Positions 15,542-22,682 of a stretch of DNA of 64,000 nt are shown here, one piece after another (position 1 is the stretch's first letter; the number at the start of each line of letters is the position of its first letter). A model generated the notes under the pieces. That model was not told the DNA's origin. It ran no database searches and saw nothing but the letters and a program-made list of their open reading frames with translations. Source of the stretch: Acidaminococcaceae bacterium. Its GTDB lineage: Bacteria > Bacillota > Negativicutes > Acidaminococcales > Acidaminococcaceae. The stretch spans positions 1-64,000 of the forward strand of contig JAKVKY010000006.1 of the NCBI GenBank assembly GCA_022484685.1, in the 5' to 3' direction. The position numbers and the translations under genes were made by a program.

Positions 15542-15638
15542 TTGCATCGCTCCTTAACTATATTTACTGTTAGACATTGTTTAACTTCTGTATCATATAA
15601 TTTTACAATATTCGCGGGGTTTACGCAACTAGCTTAAG

Positions 15639-15770
15639 AAAGAGAGCGTGTACCTTTGTGTCCGCGCAACCGGATGCGGCAAGCAAAATTCACAATAAAT
15701 GTCAGCCGCCGGGGCGTTACCCGGCTTCTCCGCCCGCATCACGGCGCTTACAAAGGTACACGCCCTCTTT
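15639..15770 (+). repeat. Covarying hairpin repeat, copy C
   Basis: Outer stem GCGTGTACCTTTGT pairs with ACAAAGGTACACGC, flanked by AAAGAG/CTCTTT. The core has GTCAGCCG then CCGGG-GCGTTA-CCCGG. An intermediate helix pairs ATGCGG with CCGCAT. On the minus strand it begins 3 bases after the crcB stop codon, a position like that of copy A. Confidence 0.75.
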
Positions 15771-15772
15771 AC

Positions 15773-16150
15773 TTACAATATAGATTGTATCACCTGCATA
15801 CCGACTGCCACACAGATTAAGCCGGCGGCTACGCTGCAGGTGATGTTGGCGACGGCGTAGACGGGATGGAGGTAGAGCAGGTTAAAAGTTTCCAGGGAAA
15901 AGGTGGAGAAAGTGGTGAGCCCGCCCAGGACGCCGGTGATGGCAAAAAGTTTAAGGAACATGGGCAGCTCCGGATGTCTTTGAAAATAACCGGCCAGAAG
16001 CCCGATGCAGAAACAGCCGAGCAGATTTACGATCAAGGTACCGTAGGGAAAAGCCGGAGCTTTATCCCCGTACACCGTCAGGGTAATTAGATAGCGCAGT
16101 AAGGCGCCGAGCCCGCCGCCCACCAGGACCATCAACATGTCTAAATACAT
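15773..16150 (-). CDS. crcB: Fluoride efflux channel CrcB/Fluc
   Basis: 125 residues, four membrane helices, the normal length for one Fluc subunit; Fluc works as an antiparallel dimer exporting F-. Family motifs are visible: GGGLGALLRYLIT at the N-terminus, GTLIVNLLGCFCIGLLAG with the pore-lining Asn near residue 45, and GVLGGLTTFSTFSLE near 80 with the phenylalanine-box and Na+-site region. The single gene implies a homodimer. A fluoride riboswitch directly upstream confirms the role. The ATG follows AAGGAGGAAGAA. Confidence 0.97.
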   Translation of the reverse strand: MYLDMLMVLVGGGLGALLRYLITLTVYGDKAPAFPYGTLIVNLLGCFCIGLLAGYFQRHPELPMFLKLFAITGVLGGLTTFSTFSLETFNLLYLHPVYAVANITCSVAAGLICVAVGMQVIQSIL

Positions 16151-16171: not shown

Positions 16172-16254
16172 AAAAAGCTGATGCCCTCTTTTTTATTAGA
16201 AGTCATCAGCTTTAAAAGCGGTTTCAGCAAGGCTGCGGGAGTACTTCATTCCCG
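16172..16254 (-). ncRNA. Fluoride riboswitch with overlapping terminator
   Basis: On the minus strand CGGGAATGAAGTACTCCCG is followed by AGCTGATGACTTCTA, the conserved crcB-motif 3' part. The loop bases GAAGT can pair with ACTTC to make the family's pseudoknot. AAAGCTGATG, part of the aptamer, can instead pair with CATCAGCTTT, which is followed by TTT, forming a terminator (16174-16213). Fluoride binding should hold the aptamer and let crcB be transcribed. Confidence 0.93.
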
Positions 16255-16275
16255 TGGCTGTTATTATAACAAACT

Positions 16276-17943
16276 TTAGCACCGGGCGCAAGAAGTTAGT
16301 TTCTCAAACAGAGTCTTGTACAATACCAGCGGCATGATAGGCTTCGTGATATAAGCATCCATGCCCGCTTTTCTGGCAGCTTCGACCGTTTCATCAAAGG
16401 CATCTGCCGTCATGGCCAGGATCGGTATCGTCCGGGCATCCGGCCGGTCCAGTTTGCGGATAGCCTGGGTAGCCTGCAGTCCGTCCAGGACGGGCATACG
16501 GATATCCATTAAGATCAGCTGGTAATAACCCGGGGCCGCAGCCTTAAACTTGGTCACGCCCTCCTGGCCATCTCTGGCCCATTCCACCAGGACCTTTTTA
16601 TTTTTTAAAAGCAGCTGGGCAATCTCAGCGTTCAAATAGTTATCCTCACACAAAAGTACCCGATGCCCGGCCAGACCTTCATCAATTACCCTGGCCCTGG
16701 CCTGCTCCTTTTTTTCAGCAGTCCCTTCCTTATCCCAAGCCTGCAAAGGCAGGTCCACCACAAACTTGGTGCCTTGATGCAGTACGCTGGTCACCTGGAT
16801 GCTACCGCCCATAAAATCCACGATCTTTTTGACAATGGCCAGCCCCAGTCCCGTACCGGTCACATTAGGCAGTTCGGAACGGTGTTCCTGGGAAAAAGGT
16901 TCGAACATGCGCTCCATAAATTCCCTGCTCATACCGATGCCCGTGTCTGCTACCGTAATCCGGCGAGTACAGCCCTGTACCGGCGGTTCCAGTGCTTCCA
17001 CCTTAACAGAAACCCTGCCGCCCGCCGGCGTATACTTAATAGCATTGGAAATAATATTCAGTAATACCTTCTTGACCTGGACTTTATCCACCATCAGCAT
17101 TTGCCTCGGCCAGGTAGACGTATCTTTAACCAACAGCACCTTTTTCACCGTGGCGGAAGGCTCCATGGCCGTGACTATCTCTTCCCAATATTTGCAGCCA
17201 TCCACCGCTTCCGGTTTCAGCACCAGCTTGCCGCTTTCAATCCGGGACAGGTCCAGGGTATCATTCACCAGATCCAGCAGCAGGTTGCCCGAGCTCTGAA
17301 TCTTAAGCAGAAAGGCTTGTTTTTGGGCTGGATCCCGTTCCTGTACCGCCAGTTCCGTGTACCCGATGATACCGTTAAGGGGCGTCCGCAGGTCGTGGCT
17401 CATGCTGGAAAGAAAGACTGATTTGGCTTCGTTGGCCTTGGCGGCAGCGTTCAACGCCTCGCTTAAATGCCGGTCCCGTTTTGCCAATTCCTGCTGCATC
17501 TGCAGCTCTGCGCTCACATTACGATACGAAGCATAAAACAGCCGGCCCTCCGGCAAATCTTCCCGGTGCGTCACATCCAAGGCAACCCAGATATAGTTGC
17601 CGGTACTGGTCATAAGCCGCAGGGGTTTAAGCTGAAAATGCTGTTTGGTAAAGCCTTCCCGGAAAGCTTCGATAACCTCCTCCAGGTCATCCGGATGCAC
17701 ACCGCTGAAAGCATTTGTATGATAATCTGCACGCAGCTTACTCGTCGCCGGTGCTTTCAATTCCGGGGCAGATACGTCCGGATTAATCATGCGTATCATA
17801 TACTTATTAGCAAATCTCAATTGCTGGTGCAGTTCGTCCGGCATAAAAAGAACGCAGACACCCACTGGAAGATTATCCAGGATATCTGCTATCTGCTGAT
17901 TCTTAATGTCGCTGCTCGCGGTTATTTTTTTATTTACCGTCAT
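16276..17943 (-). CDS. Soluble hybrid sensor histidine kinase with PAS and receiver domains
   Basis: 555 residues and no membrane segment. A PAS-type sensor occupies about residues 20-155 (FREGFTKQHFQLKPLRLMTSTGNYIWVALD). HisKA has the phospho-His in FLSSMSHDLRTPLNGIIGY near 180. The HATPase_c domain shows NIISNAIKYTP, ADTGIGMS and GTGLGLAIVKK. A C-terminal receiver at about 430-550 has LILMDIRMPVLDG with the phospho-acceptor Asp near 480. No response regulator or Hpt gene is adjacent, so the output partner is elsewhere. It would sense an intracellular signal. Confidence 0.92.
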   Translation of the reverse strand: MTVNKKITASSDIKNQQIADILDNLPVGVCVLFMPDELHQQLRFANKYMIRMINPDVSAPELKAPATSKLRADYHTNAFSGVHPDDLEEVIEAFREGFTKQHFQLKPLRLMTSTGNYIWVALDVTHREDLPEGRLFYASYRNVSAELQMQQELAKRDRHLSEALNAAAKANEAKSVFLSSMSHDLRTPLNGIIGYTELAVQERDPAQKQAFLLKIQSSGNLLLDLVNDTLDLSRIESGKLVLKPEAVDGCKYWEEIVTAMEPSATVKKVLLVKDTSTWPRQMLMVDKVQVKKVLLNIISNAIKYTPAGGRVSVKVEALEPPVQGCTRRITVADTGIGMSREFMERMFEPFSQEHRSELPNVTGTGLGLAIVKKIVDFMGGSIQVTSVLHQGTKFVVDLPLQAWDKEGTAEKKEQARARVIDEGLAGHRVLLCEDNYLNAEIAQLLLKNKKVLVEWARDGQEGVTKFKAAAPGYYQLILMDIRMPVLDGLQATQAIRKLDRPDARTIPILAMTADAFDETVEAARKAGMDAYITKPIMPLVLYKTLFEKLTSCARC

Positions 17944-18194: not shown

Positions 18195-21100
18195 TTAGAA
18201 AGTCCAACGTGCGCCAACATTGACCTGCAGGTTAGATTTCAATTGTCCCAGATATTTGCTGAGTTCACCATAAACCACCATGTTCTTGCCGGCTTTGGCC
18301 GTACCGCCCAGGCTCAGTTCGCACCAGTTGTGGGCCACCGTGTTACTGTAAAGAACACTGTTAGCGCCATCCGCAGCTTTAATATGGATACCGCCGCTAA
18401 AATCGTGGTAGTAATTAGCCTTACCGTACAGGGTACCGCCTTTAAATTCTTTGCCGGCGGCTACGCCTAACCTGGCGATGGCTTTATTCTGGGCATCCAC
18501 ATGGGCGTTCATGTTGGTAGAAGTTACATAGTCGGCGCCCTGGATCCGGCCCAGGATCAGTTCTGCCTGCGGTTCTACGTAGAACCCGTGGCCTAACTGT
18601 TTGCGCACTCCGTATTCGCTGCTGAGGCTGTAAGCCCAGGTATGATAATCCGCATGGGATTTATTATCGCCTTCGCTGACCAAATCATAATCATTGCTGT
18701 ATCTGCCGGCTTTAAAAATTACGTCATAATACTGGCCGTTCTTTTTTACGCCGGTCTGGTACAAGGAAAGCGTGGTCTCGCTTAAATCACCGCTGCCAAT
18801 TTCGTAACTGCCGCTGCCCTTGGCATGGGAAACGGCCAGACCCCGGTAAGTTGTTTCGCCGGAGCCACGGCTTTCTTTATCGAAACCGGCCTGGAACAAA
18901 TTGTATTTGACGCTGCTCTCGTTATGGTCCAGTTTGCCGTGATGGTACCGCGCCCACACACCGGCCTCGGCAGGATTGGTCTGACGCAGATCGCCTAACC
19001 GTTTTTCCAGGTTGTTAACTTCGCCTAAGAACAACTCATGCAATCCCAGATGGGTTTGAGCTATGCTGCGTACCGGCCCGGTAATTGTCGTTACCGTATT
19101 ACCGCCGGTATTCCCGCCGCCACCGGTATCGCCACCGCCCGTACCATCGCCGCTATCACCGCCACCTGTATCACCACCACCAGCATTACCACTGTCGCTA
19201 ACATTATTAATCGTAATATTAGTCAGATACCATTTACCGTCCGTATCCTTAATGACCGTAGGCGTATATTGATACAGATTATATTCTCCCTGCTTACCGG
19301 TAAAAATAAGCGTAGACGGAGCGGCGCTGACCACTTCGGCCTTGCCAGCAAGCGTACTGCCTGCGGCCAAATCCGCCGTAGCCAGGTATGGATCATATTT
19401 TACCTGGATATAGGCATTAGTGGTTGCCGCATCGGCTCCCGCAATACTCAGCTTATCGGCTACATTCTGAGCCAGGTCGCTGTTAATTTTGAAGATGCCG
19501 TTATTTCCGGAAAGTCTGCCAATCGTCAGAGTCCTGCCGTCCGTAGACGGATTCCGGGTGGCCTTATCCCAGGTCAGATCCACCACACCACCTTCGTTTA
19601 AGGTCAGCCTGGGGATGGAGTTGGCGCTTACCGTATAATCTTTCGTAAAAGTGGCCGCGTCATTCTCAGCATAGAAAGAACCATAGCGGTTATCATACAC
19701 CGGTTCCCAGGCGGCACCGCCGCCAACGATCAGATTCACCACGCCGTCGTTCATTTCTTTCACGTTACCTTGCAGATAAGAATCCGGCTGATCCAGGGTT
19801 ATATTAAGTACGGCATTCTCATTCTTGGCCCCCACGTCACCTTGTAGTTTCACAATCTGTCCTAAAGAATCCGTACCATCAGTGCCTACATTAATGACAC
19901 CGTTAGTATCAGCATACAACGAAGCTGCGATAAATGCTGCTCCGCTCACCGGTGTCACCACTGCACTGATATCTACGCTCTTCCGCAACTGCACCGTGCC
20001 GTTCTCACTATATATACCTGCCGCATGGATGCCGGAATTATTGCCGGCAGCACCGCCCACAGCTGCAGCTGCAATCGTTACCGGCCCGTTAATCTCTATC
20101 CCGTTAGTACTTTTATTAATAATACCTACCGCGTCAGCGCTGGAGTACTCCGGGGTCACTCCTGACCCGGCGCTGCCGCCAGTGGCTTGTACATCAAAAA
20201 TCCAGCTGCCGATAAGCGAGGCTCTGCCGCTATTCTCATTAGCAAGCCCGTACGCTTCCGCAGAAACGTTGCTGGTAGCAGCGGTAGCCGTACCGCCGGC
20301 AGCACGAACCAGCAGGGAATTAACCGCCGTGCCGTCCCCGGTTCCCAGGGTACTGTAATTATTCTTAATCCCGTAAGCCTGAGCATAGGCGTTATCACCG
20401 GTACCGCCCTGGGCATTAACTTCAGTCATGTTTATGGAGGTTGCATAGATAGTATGAGGCGCATTTTCATTATAAATACCGTAGGCTGTTGCATAAGCAG
20501 TATCGCCGGTACCACCCTGGGCTTTAACTAAAGCAAAAGTCAGGGGGCCCGTAGTAGCTTCATCCGTCTGGTTCCTAAGACCGTAGGCTTCCGCCGAAGC
20601 ATCGCTGGCTACGGCTTCTGCTGCACCGGCTGCAGGTGCGCCGCCGGTTGCCTGTACGGAGAAAGTCGTAGGACCGGTAAGTGTCAGGCTCTGATAGTTG
20701 TCAATGCCACAAGCAAAGGCATAGACAAGGGCCCCGTCACTACTGGTACCACCCTGGGCCGTTGCGGTAATCTTATTGGCGCCGCCGCTCATGGTAAGGG
20801 TACCAAAATTCATGATGCCCCTGGCCTCGGCCGTAGTTTCATCCGCGGCGGTTTGTCCCGCAGCGGTGGCTGTAATTTCAAAATTAGTGCCGTTAAGCGT
20901 ACCATTGTTGCTGATGCCATAGGCCGCAGCATTAGCAGAAGGTCCAAAACCGCCTGTAGCCGTCACATTGCCGGTCAGCTTACCGGTAGTGGTAAAAATA
21001 TTATTATTCTCATTGTATAGCAAAGTAGCCAGAGCAGTAGCATTACCATTAGTTCCGGCATTACCGCCGGTGGCGCTGACATTGGTAAAATTAACCACTC

Positions 21101-22682
21101 CCACCGTCATCTCGGCAGCAACCGGCCCACTGCTATTACCTACATTATTAATTCCATAGGCATACGCCTCGGCATCAGCTCCGGTACCGCCTTGGGCAGA
21201 CACCGTGATAAAATTCACATCGTCCGCCGTAAAGGATGTGCCCTGATTATGAATACCATAAGCAGTTCCAATAACATTCCCGGCCAGGTTGCCGGCTTCA
21301 AAACGCTGGCCCCCCGTAGCCTGCACGGAAAAAGTTATCTTGCCGTGCAGGTCCGTAGTATTACTGGCAAAAATACCGTAGGCCGTAGCGGAAACATCAG
21401 TATTTTCATCCAGGCCGGAAGAGTTGCCACCTATGGCTGTTACGGTTATGGTATTGGCAATACCCGTTGTTCCCATGGACAGGTTCACCGCATCACCGGC
21501 ATTTTCCCCGGCAGCCAGACCGTAAGCCTGACCCACCGCGCTGGTATCGCTGATCCCGCCCGCAGCCCGCACCGTAATATCAAAGGTACCCGTGGTCACA
21601 GAACCCTCCTGGTTCTGCACACCAAATGCCGTGGCATCCGCACTGCCGCCGCTGTCGGCACTGCCGCCTTTGGCAGAGATGTTGTTCAACGCCAGGGCAG
21701 CGGTCGTAACCGTACCCCCACTCACATTAGAAATACCGGAAGCAAAACCCAGGGCGTTAGTACCGGTAGTACCTGTTGCTTTAACATAATCAATGATCAG
21801 ATTGTCCGTAATAAGAGTCGCAGCACTTCCCGAATTATATAAACCATACGCTTCACCATAAGCATCTCCTGCCGAAGAAGTTCCGCCGCTGGCTACAGCA
21901 CCGCCTTTGGCATCTGCGCTTAGCGTGGTCTCACCTCTCAAAGTCAGGCTGCCATAATTTTCGGCTCCATAAACGGTAGCACTCACATCATTGAGGATTC
22001 CCTGTGCCGTACCTCCCGTAGCCTTGGCAGCAATAGAATTAGCACCGCCGGTAACACCTATGGTAGTAAGGGGCTGCGTCAGCACGCCGTCATTCCCGTT
22101 CACAATACCGTGAGCTTTAGCTTTAGCCTCCTCAGACTCGTCGGTAACAACACCGCCGGCTGCCGTCACGGACATGGTAACTGTTTCAGTAGTCAGGGTC
22201 CCGGCTATTGCCCCGATACCGATGGCTTCCGCAACCCCTTTCCCATTCCCGGCGCCTGTTGCGGTCACCTGGGCCGACAAAGTCCCATGGATATTTGTCA
22301 CCGCCGCCTCATCCAGGGAACCTGCTCCTGCCGCCATAACATAACCCGTATCCTGGCTGCCATCATTAGACACCCTAACGGTGTAATAGTTGCCGGCGGC
22401 CGGCGTCGTCAGATAAACGGACATGGGCTGCGTGCCGGAACCATCATTGCCGATACCCACATAAACCGTATTACCGGCTTCGGTGATAACGGAAGAGGCC
22501 GGACTATTTTGATTGACATTGATACTATTATAAGGAAGGCTGGCCGTACTTTGGTTGGTGGTAGGAGAAACCATCTGCGTAATTGCCAGGGGTTGTGCCC
22601 ACACCGTTCCCGAAATACCGCTTATGATAGACGCGGTTATTGCCATAGCTAACCATTTTTGCCTGCTTTGTACCTTAGACAT
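18195..22682 (-). CDS. Type V autotransporter with AYGI-repeat passenger
   Basis: 1495 residues. A signal peptide (about 1-29, ending VWAQP) is followed by a very Gly/Ala/Thr-rich passenger. From about residue 190 to 950 it holds roughly 16-17 imperfect repeats, each with an A-[YHF]-G-[ILV]-x-N core (AYGLYN, AFGVQN, AYGIHN, AYGINN, AYGISN, AYGIYN, AYGIKN, AYGLAN). This suggests a long beta-helix. A pertactin-like part follows. A Gly/Asp/Thr linker lies near 1164-1196. The C-terminal beta-barrel (about 1200-1495) ends in Phe (NVGARWTF), as BAM substrates do. No enzymatic motif is visible; adhesin is the likely role. The ATG follows AGGAG. It is divergent from a membrane-bound LuxR-type gene. 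Confidence 0.93.
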   Translation of the reverse strand: MSKVQSRQKWLAMAITASIISGISGTVWAQPLAITQMVSPTTNQSTASLPYNSINVNQNSPASSVITEAGNTVYVGIGNDGSGTQPMSVYLTTPAAGNYYTVRVSNDGSQDTGYVMAAGAGSLDEAAVTNIHGTLSAQVTATGAGNGKGVAEAIGIGAIAGTLTTETVTMSVTAAGGVVTDESEEAKAKAHGIVNGNDGVLTQPLTTIGVTGGANSIAAKATGGTAQGILNDVSATVYGAENYGSLTLRGETTLSADAKGGAVASGGTSSAGDAYGEAYGLYNSGSAATLITDNLIIDYVKATGTTGTNALGFASGISNVSGGTVTTAALALNNISAKGGSADSGGSADATAFGVQNQEGSVTTGTFDITVRAAGGISDTSAVGQAYGLAAGENAGDAVNLSMGTTGIANTITVTAIGGNSSGLDENTDVSATAYGIFASNTTDLHGKITFSVQATGGQRFEAGNLAGNVIGTAYGIHNQGTSFTADDVNFITVSAQGGTGADAEAYAYGINNVGNSSGPVAAEMTVGVVNFTNVSATGGNAGTNGNATALATLLYNENNNIFTTTGKLTGNVTATGGFGPSANAAAYGISNNGTLNGTNFEITATAAGQTAADETTAEARGIMNFGTLTMSGGANKITATAQGGTSSDGALVYAFACGIDNYQSLTLTGPTTFSVQATGGAPAAGAAEAVASDASAEAYGLRNQTDEATTGPLTFALVKAQGGTGDTAYATAYGIYNENAPHTIYATSINMTEVNAQGGTGDNAYAQAYGIKNNYSTLGTGDGTAVNSLLVRAAGGTATAATSNVSAEAYGLANENSGRASLIGSWIFDVQATGGSAGSGVTPEYSSADAVGIINKSTNGIEINGPVTIAAAAVGGAAGNNSGIHAAGIYSENGTVQLRKSVDISAVVTPVSGAAFIAASLYADTNGVINVGTDGTDSLGQIVKLQGDVGAKNENAVLNITLDQPDSYLQGNVKEMNDGVVNLIVGGGAAWEPVYDNRYGSFYAENDAATFTKDYTVSANSIPRLTLNEGGVVDLTWDKATRNPSTDGRTLTIGRLSGNNGIFKINSDLAQNVADKLSIAGADAATTNAYIQVKYDPYLATADLAAGSTLAGKAEVVSAAPSTLIFTGKQGEYNLYQYTPTVIKDTDGKWYLTNITINNVSDSGNAGGGDTGGGDSGDGTGGGDTGGGGNTGGNTVTTITGPVRSIAQTHLGLHELFLGEVNNLEKRLGDLRQTNPAEAGVWARYHHGKLDHNESSVKYNLFQAGFDKESRGSGETTYRGLAVSHAKGSGSYEIGSGDLSETTLSLYQTGVKKNGQYYDVIFKAGRYSNDYDLVSEGDNKSHADYHTWAYSLSSEYGVRKQLGHGFYVEPQAELILGRIQGADYVTSTNMNAHVDAQNKAIARLGVAAGKEFKGGTLYGKANYYHDFSGGIHIKAADGANSVLYSNTVAHNWCELSLGGTAKAGKNMVVYGELSKYLGQLKSNLQVNVGARWTF

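Follow-up and report, generated by a model that had tools for sequence, protein, structure and literature searches.

A predicted fluoride riboswitch before crcB in an Acidaminococcaceae genome, with a terminator register that reaches into P3

The fluoride riboswitch is a model for co-transcriptional folding. In the available text of the 2010 report on the crcB motif (PMC2864571), many copies of the motif are said to share sequence with a predicted terminator, and ligand is expected to raise expression. The terminators were left undrawn there as inconsistent across representatives and were annotated in Additional File 3, and the portion of the text available to us gives no terminator register. 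Overlap of terminator and aptamer has been studied in the B. cereus switch (PMC5499547, PMC11077080, as far as their accessible text goes), and the mechanistic literature, in its accessible parts, concerns the B. cereus and T. petrophila switches, in which the pseudoknot lies at the base of the terminator. According to these parts, the B. cereus pseudoknot strand forms the terminator base and an upper stem (nt 52-55) nucleates the hairpin.

The window, by which we mean the whole 64,000-nucleotide stretch analysed here, yields just one hit to any Rfam model at gathering scores over its 64 kb, that of the fluoride model RF01734 (16262-16190, minus strand; model positions 1-64 aligned). Nowhere else in the genome (1.72 Mb, 81.6% complete) does RF01734 match at E ≤ 0.001. 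A first-pass annotation had proposed a fluoride riboswitch before crcB and had named the Rfam search beforehand as the test on which the proposal could fall; the match reaches 43.3 bits (E 1.1e-8), where the gathering score is 34, and the aptamer lies 5' of a gene for a 125-aa protein of the CrcB (Fluc) fluoride channel family (15773-16150, minus strand), a fluoride-resistance gene. The protein scores 92.8 bits with PF02537 (cut-off 32.9) and 92.5 bits with TIGR00494 (cut-off 80.45), and is the sole PF02537 match at E ≤ 0.001 in the same 1.72-Mb, 81.6% complete genome. A search for related loci with CrcB gave 58, with identities of 37-70% in the best segment, the higher values being over short stretches.

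P1, pseudoknot and P3 are all able to form. P1 (CGGGA/UCCCG, 16254-16250 with 16240-16236; hairpin 16236-16254) is placed by the Rfam alignment and the predicted fold, and its loop contains the pseudoknot 5' strand GAAGU (16247-16243). P3 (GCUU/AAGC, 16219-16216 with 16212-16209; hairpin 16209-16219) follows from the Rfam alignment, and the pseudoknot 3' strand ACUUC (16203-16199), read from the sequence, offers five pairs with GAAGU. This pairing had been proposed earlier as GAAGT/ACTTC without mention of strand; it is found on the minus strand. The sixth pseudoknot position is a G opposite an A, so that no sixth pair forms; the accessible text of PMC11077080 stresses the importance of a wobble at this position. 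Between P1 and P3 lies a P2 hairpin (CAGC-CUU-GCUG, 16235-16225), seen in the fold and, in the Rfam alignment, as an insertion relative to the consensus; it is absent from the first-pass annotation, as was the promoter-like TGTTATAAT ending at 16263. The predicted fold of the 100-nt leader has a z-score of -3.66, equalled by 1 of 200 shuffles.

The terminator arms reported previously, AAAGCTGATG (16213-16204) and CATCAGCTTT (16183-16174), and the T-run at 16176-16172 are also present on the minus strand. The lower ten pairs were given correctly, but the stem had been ended too early: beyond an A.G mismatch it takes in the pseudoknot strand as well, CUUCU pairing with AGAGG, so that the inverted repeat is predicted to fold as an intrinsic terminator hairpin (16213-16174) of 15 pairs and the one mismatch, with a 5' arm at 16213-16198, an 8-nt loop at 16197-16190 and a 3' arm at 16189-16174. 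The stem starts 5 nt 5' of the conserved UGAUGA joint, within P3, so that the P3 3' strand (16212-16209) is common to aptamer and terminator, and the CUUC of ACUUC recurs in the terminator apex. The same 16 bases thus contribute to P3, joint and pseudoknot when the aptamer folds and make up the terminator 5' arm in the alternative fold, and the two earlier claims, that the 3' aptamer segment doubles as the terminator 5' arm and that two mutually exclusive folds are present, hold, the terminator pairing being conserved in relatives. The predicted energies are -18.3 kcal/mol for the terminator versus -0.8 for the P3 segment and -3.0 for the pseudoknot duplex. The T-run reads UUUUU and then C (16176-16172 for the five U), with its first three T inside the stem. 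The hairpin 16213-16174 is not among the entries of a simple terminator pattern scan, which on our reading of the scan rule is because only three of the eight bases that follow the complete stem are T; given the scan result and the short T-run, partly within the stem, termination strength is uncertain. From the last stem base, 23 bases lead to the crcB ATG (16150-16148), among them a ribosome-binding-site-like AAGGAGG (16162-16156).

Upstream, an extended -10-like element with TATAAT at 16268-16263 (TGTTATAAT) adjoins the Rfam match, and a weak -35-like hexamer, TTGCGC (16291-16286; 3/6 to TTGACA), stands 17 nt 5' of it within the last codons of a hybrid histidine kinase ORF (16276-17943, minus strand; HisKA, HATPase_c, Response_reg). 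The pair is absent from the simple pattern scan because its rule calls for at least 4/6 per hexamer. We regard it as a putative promoter, read from the letters; since TGTTATAAT ends at 16263, the transcript would begin at about P1. The promoter-like sequence (16263-16291, minus strand) lies partly within the 3' end of the kinase ORF, whose stop codon is 13 bases from the Rfam match, and the pattern scan shows no minus-strand terminator between kinase and riboswitch; from this overlap and the lack of an intervening terminator, the kinase message may likewise stop at the riboswitch terminator.

Two neighbouring features may be recorded here. A 141-base hairpin between crcB and ychF (15635-15775, minus strand; -72.8 kcal/mol, z -7.14, 0/200 shuffles as good) has no Rfam match at gathering score and no match among 20 relatives; a second copy in the same genome (G000:C3:110658-110771, equal to L041 1501-1614; 82% identity over 114 bases) sits, by eye, 3' of a kinase-like ORF, its outer stem altered on both arms with pairing kept. 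A 1495-aa protein (18195-22682, minus strand) carries an Autotransporter beta-domain (PF03797), from which the host may be supposed to have an outer membrane.

RF01734 matched in 74 of 300 genomes of the class, in 61 of them above cut-off, and the 114 above-cut-off places listed were examined with their downstream DNA; two related genomes (G067 and G084; L029, L030, L102, L103, L105, L112 and others) contribute ten aptamers each to this sample, several of them spaced only a few kilobases apart. The register was defined by the terminator start relative to the U of UGAUGA, as usual at +3 or later and as shifted (long) at -2 or earlier. Two other callers of the register, one using free folding and one a zipper, were discarded, since in their output P3 was paired with T-runs or with bases past them. 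The terminator caller that was kept gave 86 usual, 17 long, 4 between and 7 without a call; the four between (L114, L151 and L155 at -1, L024 at +1) do not enter the long count, and one long call (L178) was rejected by eye since its 3' arm holds TTTT. This leaves the shifted register in 16 of 114 class aptamers, in 16 genomes of six families (L001, which is the window, L002, L003, L004, L006, L032, L033, L037, L132, L138, L142, L157, L174, L175, L176 and L177). In the window's own family (59 genomes, 9 with a match), five of six above-cut-off aptamers are shifted, the window included. Three of the shifted loci (L157, L175 and L176) belong to a different aptamer sub-type in which the joint reads UAAUGA and P3 has a different sequence, and their 3' arms fit the changed letters; at L157 (G096:C51:6322-6384) 20 consecutive Watson-Crick pairs form along the terminator 5' arm, from the P3 3' strand on. 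Past the pseudoknot strand, the terminator has one further pair in the window, a median of 4 (1-8) in the 16 shifted loci and a median of 6 (3-27) in 153 usual ones. L006 also has one such pair, though its loop, by eye, can pair further.

Conservation was assessed in an alignment, A1, of 12 of the 16 shifted loci, leaving out L033, which has the same leader as L032, and the three loci of the other sub-type. Over the nine outer pairs, 94.4% of 108 cells are paired, against 14.8-63.9% when the partner is slid by 1-3 columns. In seven of these nine columns all 12 loci are paired, all variation there on the 3' arm being A/G opposite U and C/U opposite G; the one both-sided change within these core columns is U-A to C-G in L006, and an outer column changes from A-U to C-G in L174 and L177. 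The two outermost columns are unpaired in 3/12 (L132, L138 and L142). The pseudoknot is kept in 93.3% of cells in the relatives, L138 and L142 being without two of its pairs. A shuffle control on A1 was unexceptional, with 48/500 reaching the percentage paired, 88/500 the covariation score and 186/500 the both-sided changes; it is not decisive since the aptamer side hardly varies, and it is the slide control, with the one-sided changes, that supplies the support from conservation.

For the wider phylum we built a covariance model, R1, from A1, so that its matches are selected for the shifted arm; it should be noted that searches over 40 genomes used stricter filters, which lose weak matches. 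R1 matched 21 of 398 genomes, the window's own included, and gave 21 new places in 20 other genomes of 14 families. RF01734 matched 156 of the 398, including all 20 other R1 genomes. The proteins 3' of the R1 leaders include, judged by eye, some that are CrcB-like, cation-antiporter-like, ClC-like and enolase-like. A looser 7-nt pairing test is passed by 20 of the 21 new places, L199 failing it though its hairpin is readable by eye; the same test is passed by 18/114 class and 2/90 phylum aptamers but also by 495/10,050 shuffles, and was judged too permissive. The phylum sample proper is non-random, running from the top of the RF01734 match list down to G376:C32 with two places left out (both G481:C56), and comprises 100 places, 90 newly taken and 10 already collected. 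The 90 were called as 67 usual, 9 long, 7 between and 7 without a call, and all nine long calls were rejected by eye because the pairing crosses the T-run. Among these best 100 places, nine are shifted (L181, L183, L187, L188, L189, L190, L191, L192 and L201), all of them among the ten already collected; the tenth, L039, is usual.

Could an ordinary fluoride terminator have come to pair with the P3 strand by chance alone? Some long calls are artefacts of T-run pairing (9/9 among the 90 phylum places, 1/17 in the class), and the A1 shuffle control is weak. In a stricter test against shuffled tails that preserve base composition only, 163 of 20,100 shuffles reach 7/7 pairs and 541 reach 6/7. Real loci, by contrast, reach 7/7 in 12/204 (12/114 in the class, with a further 4/114 at 6/7, and 0/90 in the phylum sample), that is 5.9% versus 0.8%. 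Two borderline cases may be mentioned: L174 fails the stricter test with only four Watson-Crick pairs, and in L132 a neighbouring block was chosen; L156, at 6/7 pairs, was not counted as shifted as free folding starts its terminator at +6. Own arms also pair better than swapped ones. With the best block taken in every tail (an earlier version was biased, its own block having been chosen as best), the own tails of 36 shifted loci, which are not independent (L197 and L198 share a hairpin and 25 have the same arm), pair 6.8 of 7 P3/joint-arm bases, with 7/7 in 28/36, versus 5.5, with 7/7 in 9/268, for tails of loci differing at two or more of the seven arm positions. Terminator start positions moreover form two groups with few between, and changes that preserve pairing occur across several families. 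We therefore consider chance extension very unlikely.

A second reading accepts the aptamer as real and takes control to be mainly translational or absent, the hairpin being a weak attenuator or just the end of the kinase message. It draws on the nearness of the kinase stop codon and the lack of a scanned terminator before the riboswitch, on the short T-run and the failure of the scan to enter the hairpin, and on the 7/114 class and 7/90 phylum aptamers without a terminator call, which show that members without a recognisable terminator occur. Against it stand the position of AAGGAGG outside both folds and the retention of hairpin and T-rich tail in the 12 aligned relatives; this reading too seems improbable, if somewhat less so than chance extension. 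The element is thus very probably a fluoride riboswitch, with crcB under the control of transcription termination, as the above-cut-off RF01734 match, the CrcB gene, the terminator energy and the conserved pairing together indicate, with the response to fluoride itself a prediction.

On this preferred reading of termination control, transcription would start at about 16256, just before P1, and polymerase would make the aptamer with P1, P2, P3 and pseudoknot. With fluoride bound, pseudoknot and P3 would hold the strand 16213-16198, no terminator would form and crcB would be made. Without fluoride, the emerging strand 16189-16174 would capture 16213-16198, taking the pseudoknot strand (CUUCU with AGAGG) first, then the UGAUGA joint and then the P3 strand, whose capture would complete all 15 terminator pairs while the T-run is still being transcribed. 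This order of displacement is suggested by the anatomy: with almost no terminator stem outside the aptamer, the pseudoknot would have to open before nucleation, the reverse of the published order.

It is an evenly balanced proposal that fluoride switches use two conserved expression platforms, and that in the second, found in the window and its relatives, the terminator 3' arm mimics the P3 5' strand and the aptamer 3' half supplies almost the whole 5' arm, so that fluoride would keep the terminator from nucleating and not from being completed. If this is true, the decision point should come earlier, with a change in sensitivity. A natural sub-group in which strands are displaced in reverse order would show which of the two steps, nucleation or completion, fluoride gates.

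How, then, does the locus compare with described systems? Overlap as such is not special, since 86/114 class aptamers share sequence with a terminator in the usual register and such overlap was already published in 2010 (PMC2864571, in its available text). In the available parts of PMC5499547, PMC8752731 and PMC11077080, the B. cereus crcB switch resembles the window in its aptamer of P1, pseudoknot and P3 before crcB, in a terminator competing with the pseudoknot and in being an ON switch, as is predicted here. The covariation model with a terminator stem P4 (PMC13273304) likewise has terminator covariation overlapping the pseudoknot strand; its accessible text names pseudoknot nucleotides, and terminator use of P3 is unmentioned there. 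The same study assayed 1901 variants. The shifted register is undescribed in the passages of running text that were searched in the open literature, and it may be known to specialists. The window does not show the B. cereus register, in which the pseudoknot strand lies at the terminator base with P3 outside: here the pseudoknot strand sits at the apex by the loop and the P3 3' strand forms the base, a contrast drawn with B. cereus as the accessible text describes it. Also unlike that description, the window has a P2 hairpin and a single terminator pair beyond the pseudoknot strand. Whereas in B. cereus, by the same partial account, nucleation occurs in the upper stem and formation of the base then disrupts the pseudoknot, in the window the pseudoknot would yield first and P3 last. 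The register also has a bearing on the A40-U48 linchpin. The G42-U17 wobble in the available text of PMC11077080 implies that G42 is the base before ACUCC; if so, A40 would correspond to the A of UGAUGA at 16206, while the final U of CUUCU, at 16198, would be the counterpart of U48, and under this mapping both would lie in the terminator arm here and only U48 in the usual register. What is particular to the window is the register together with the single pair beyond the pseudoknot strand, as modelled in the predicted fold. By analogy the general mechanism is that of the known fluoride ON-switch, with a predicted response to fluoride, and the terminator register, as read from the sequences compared, is best described as a conserved, modest variant of it.
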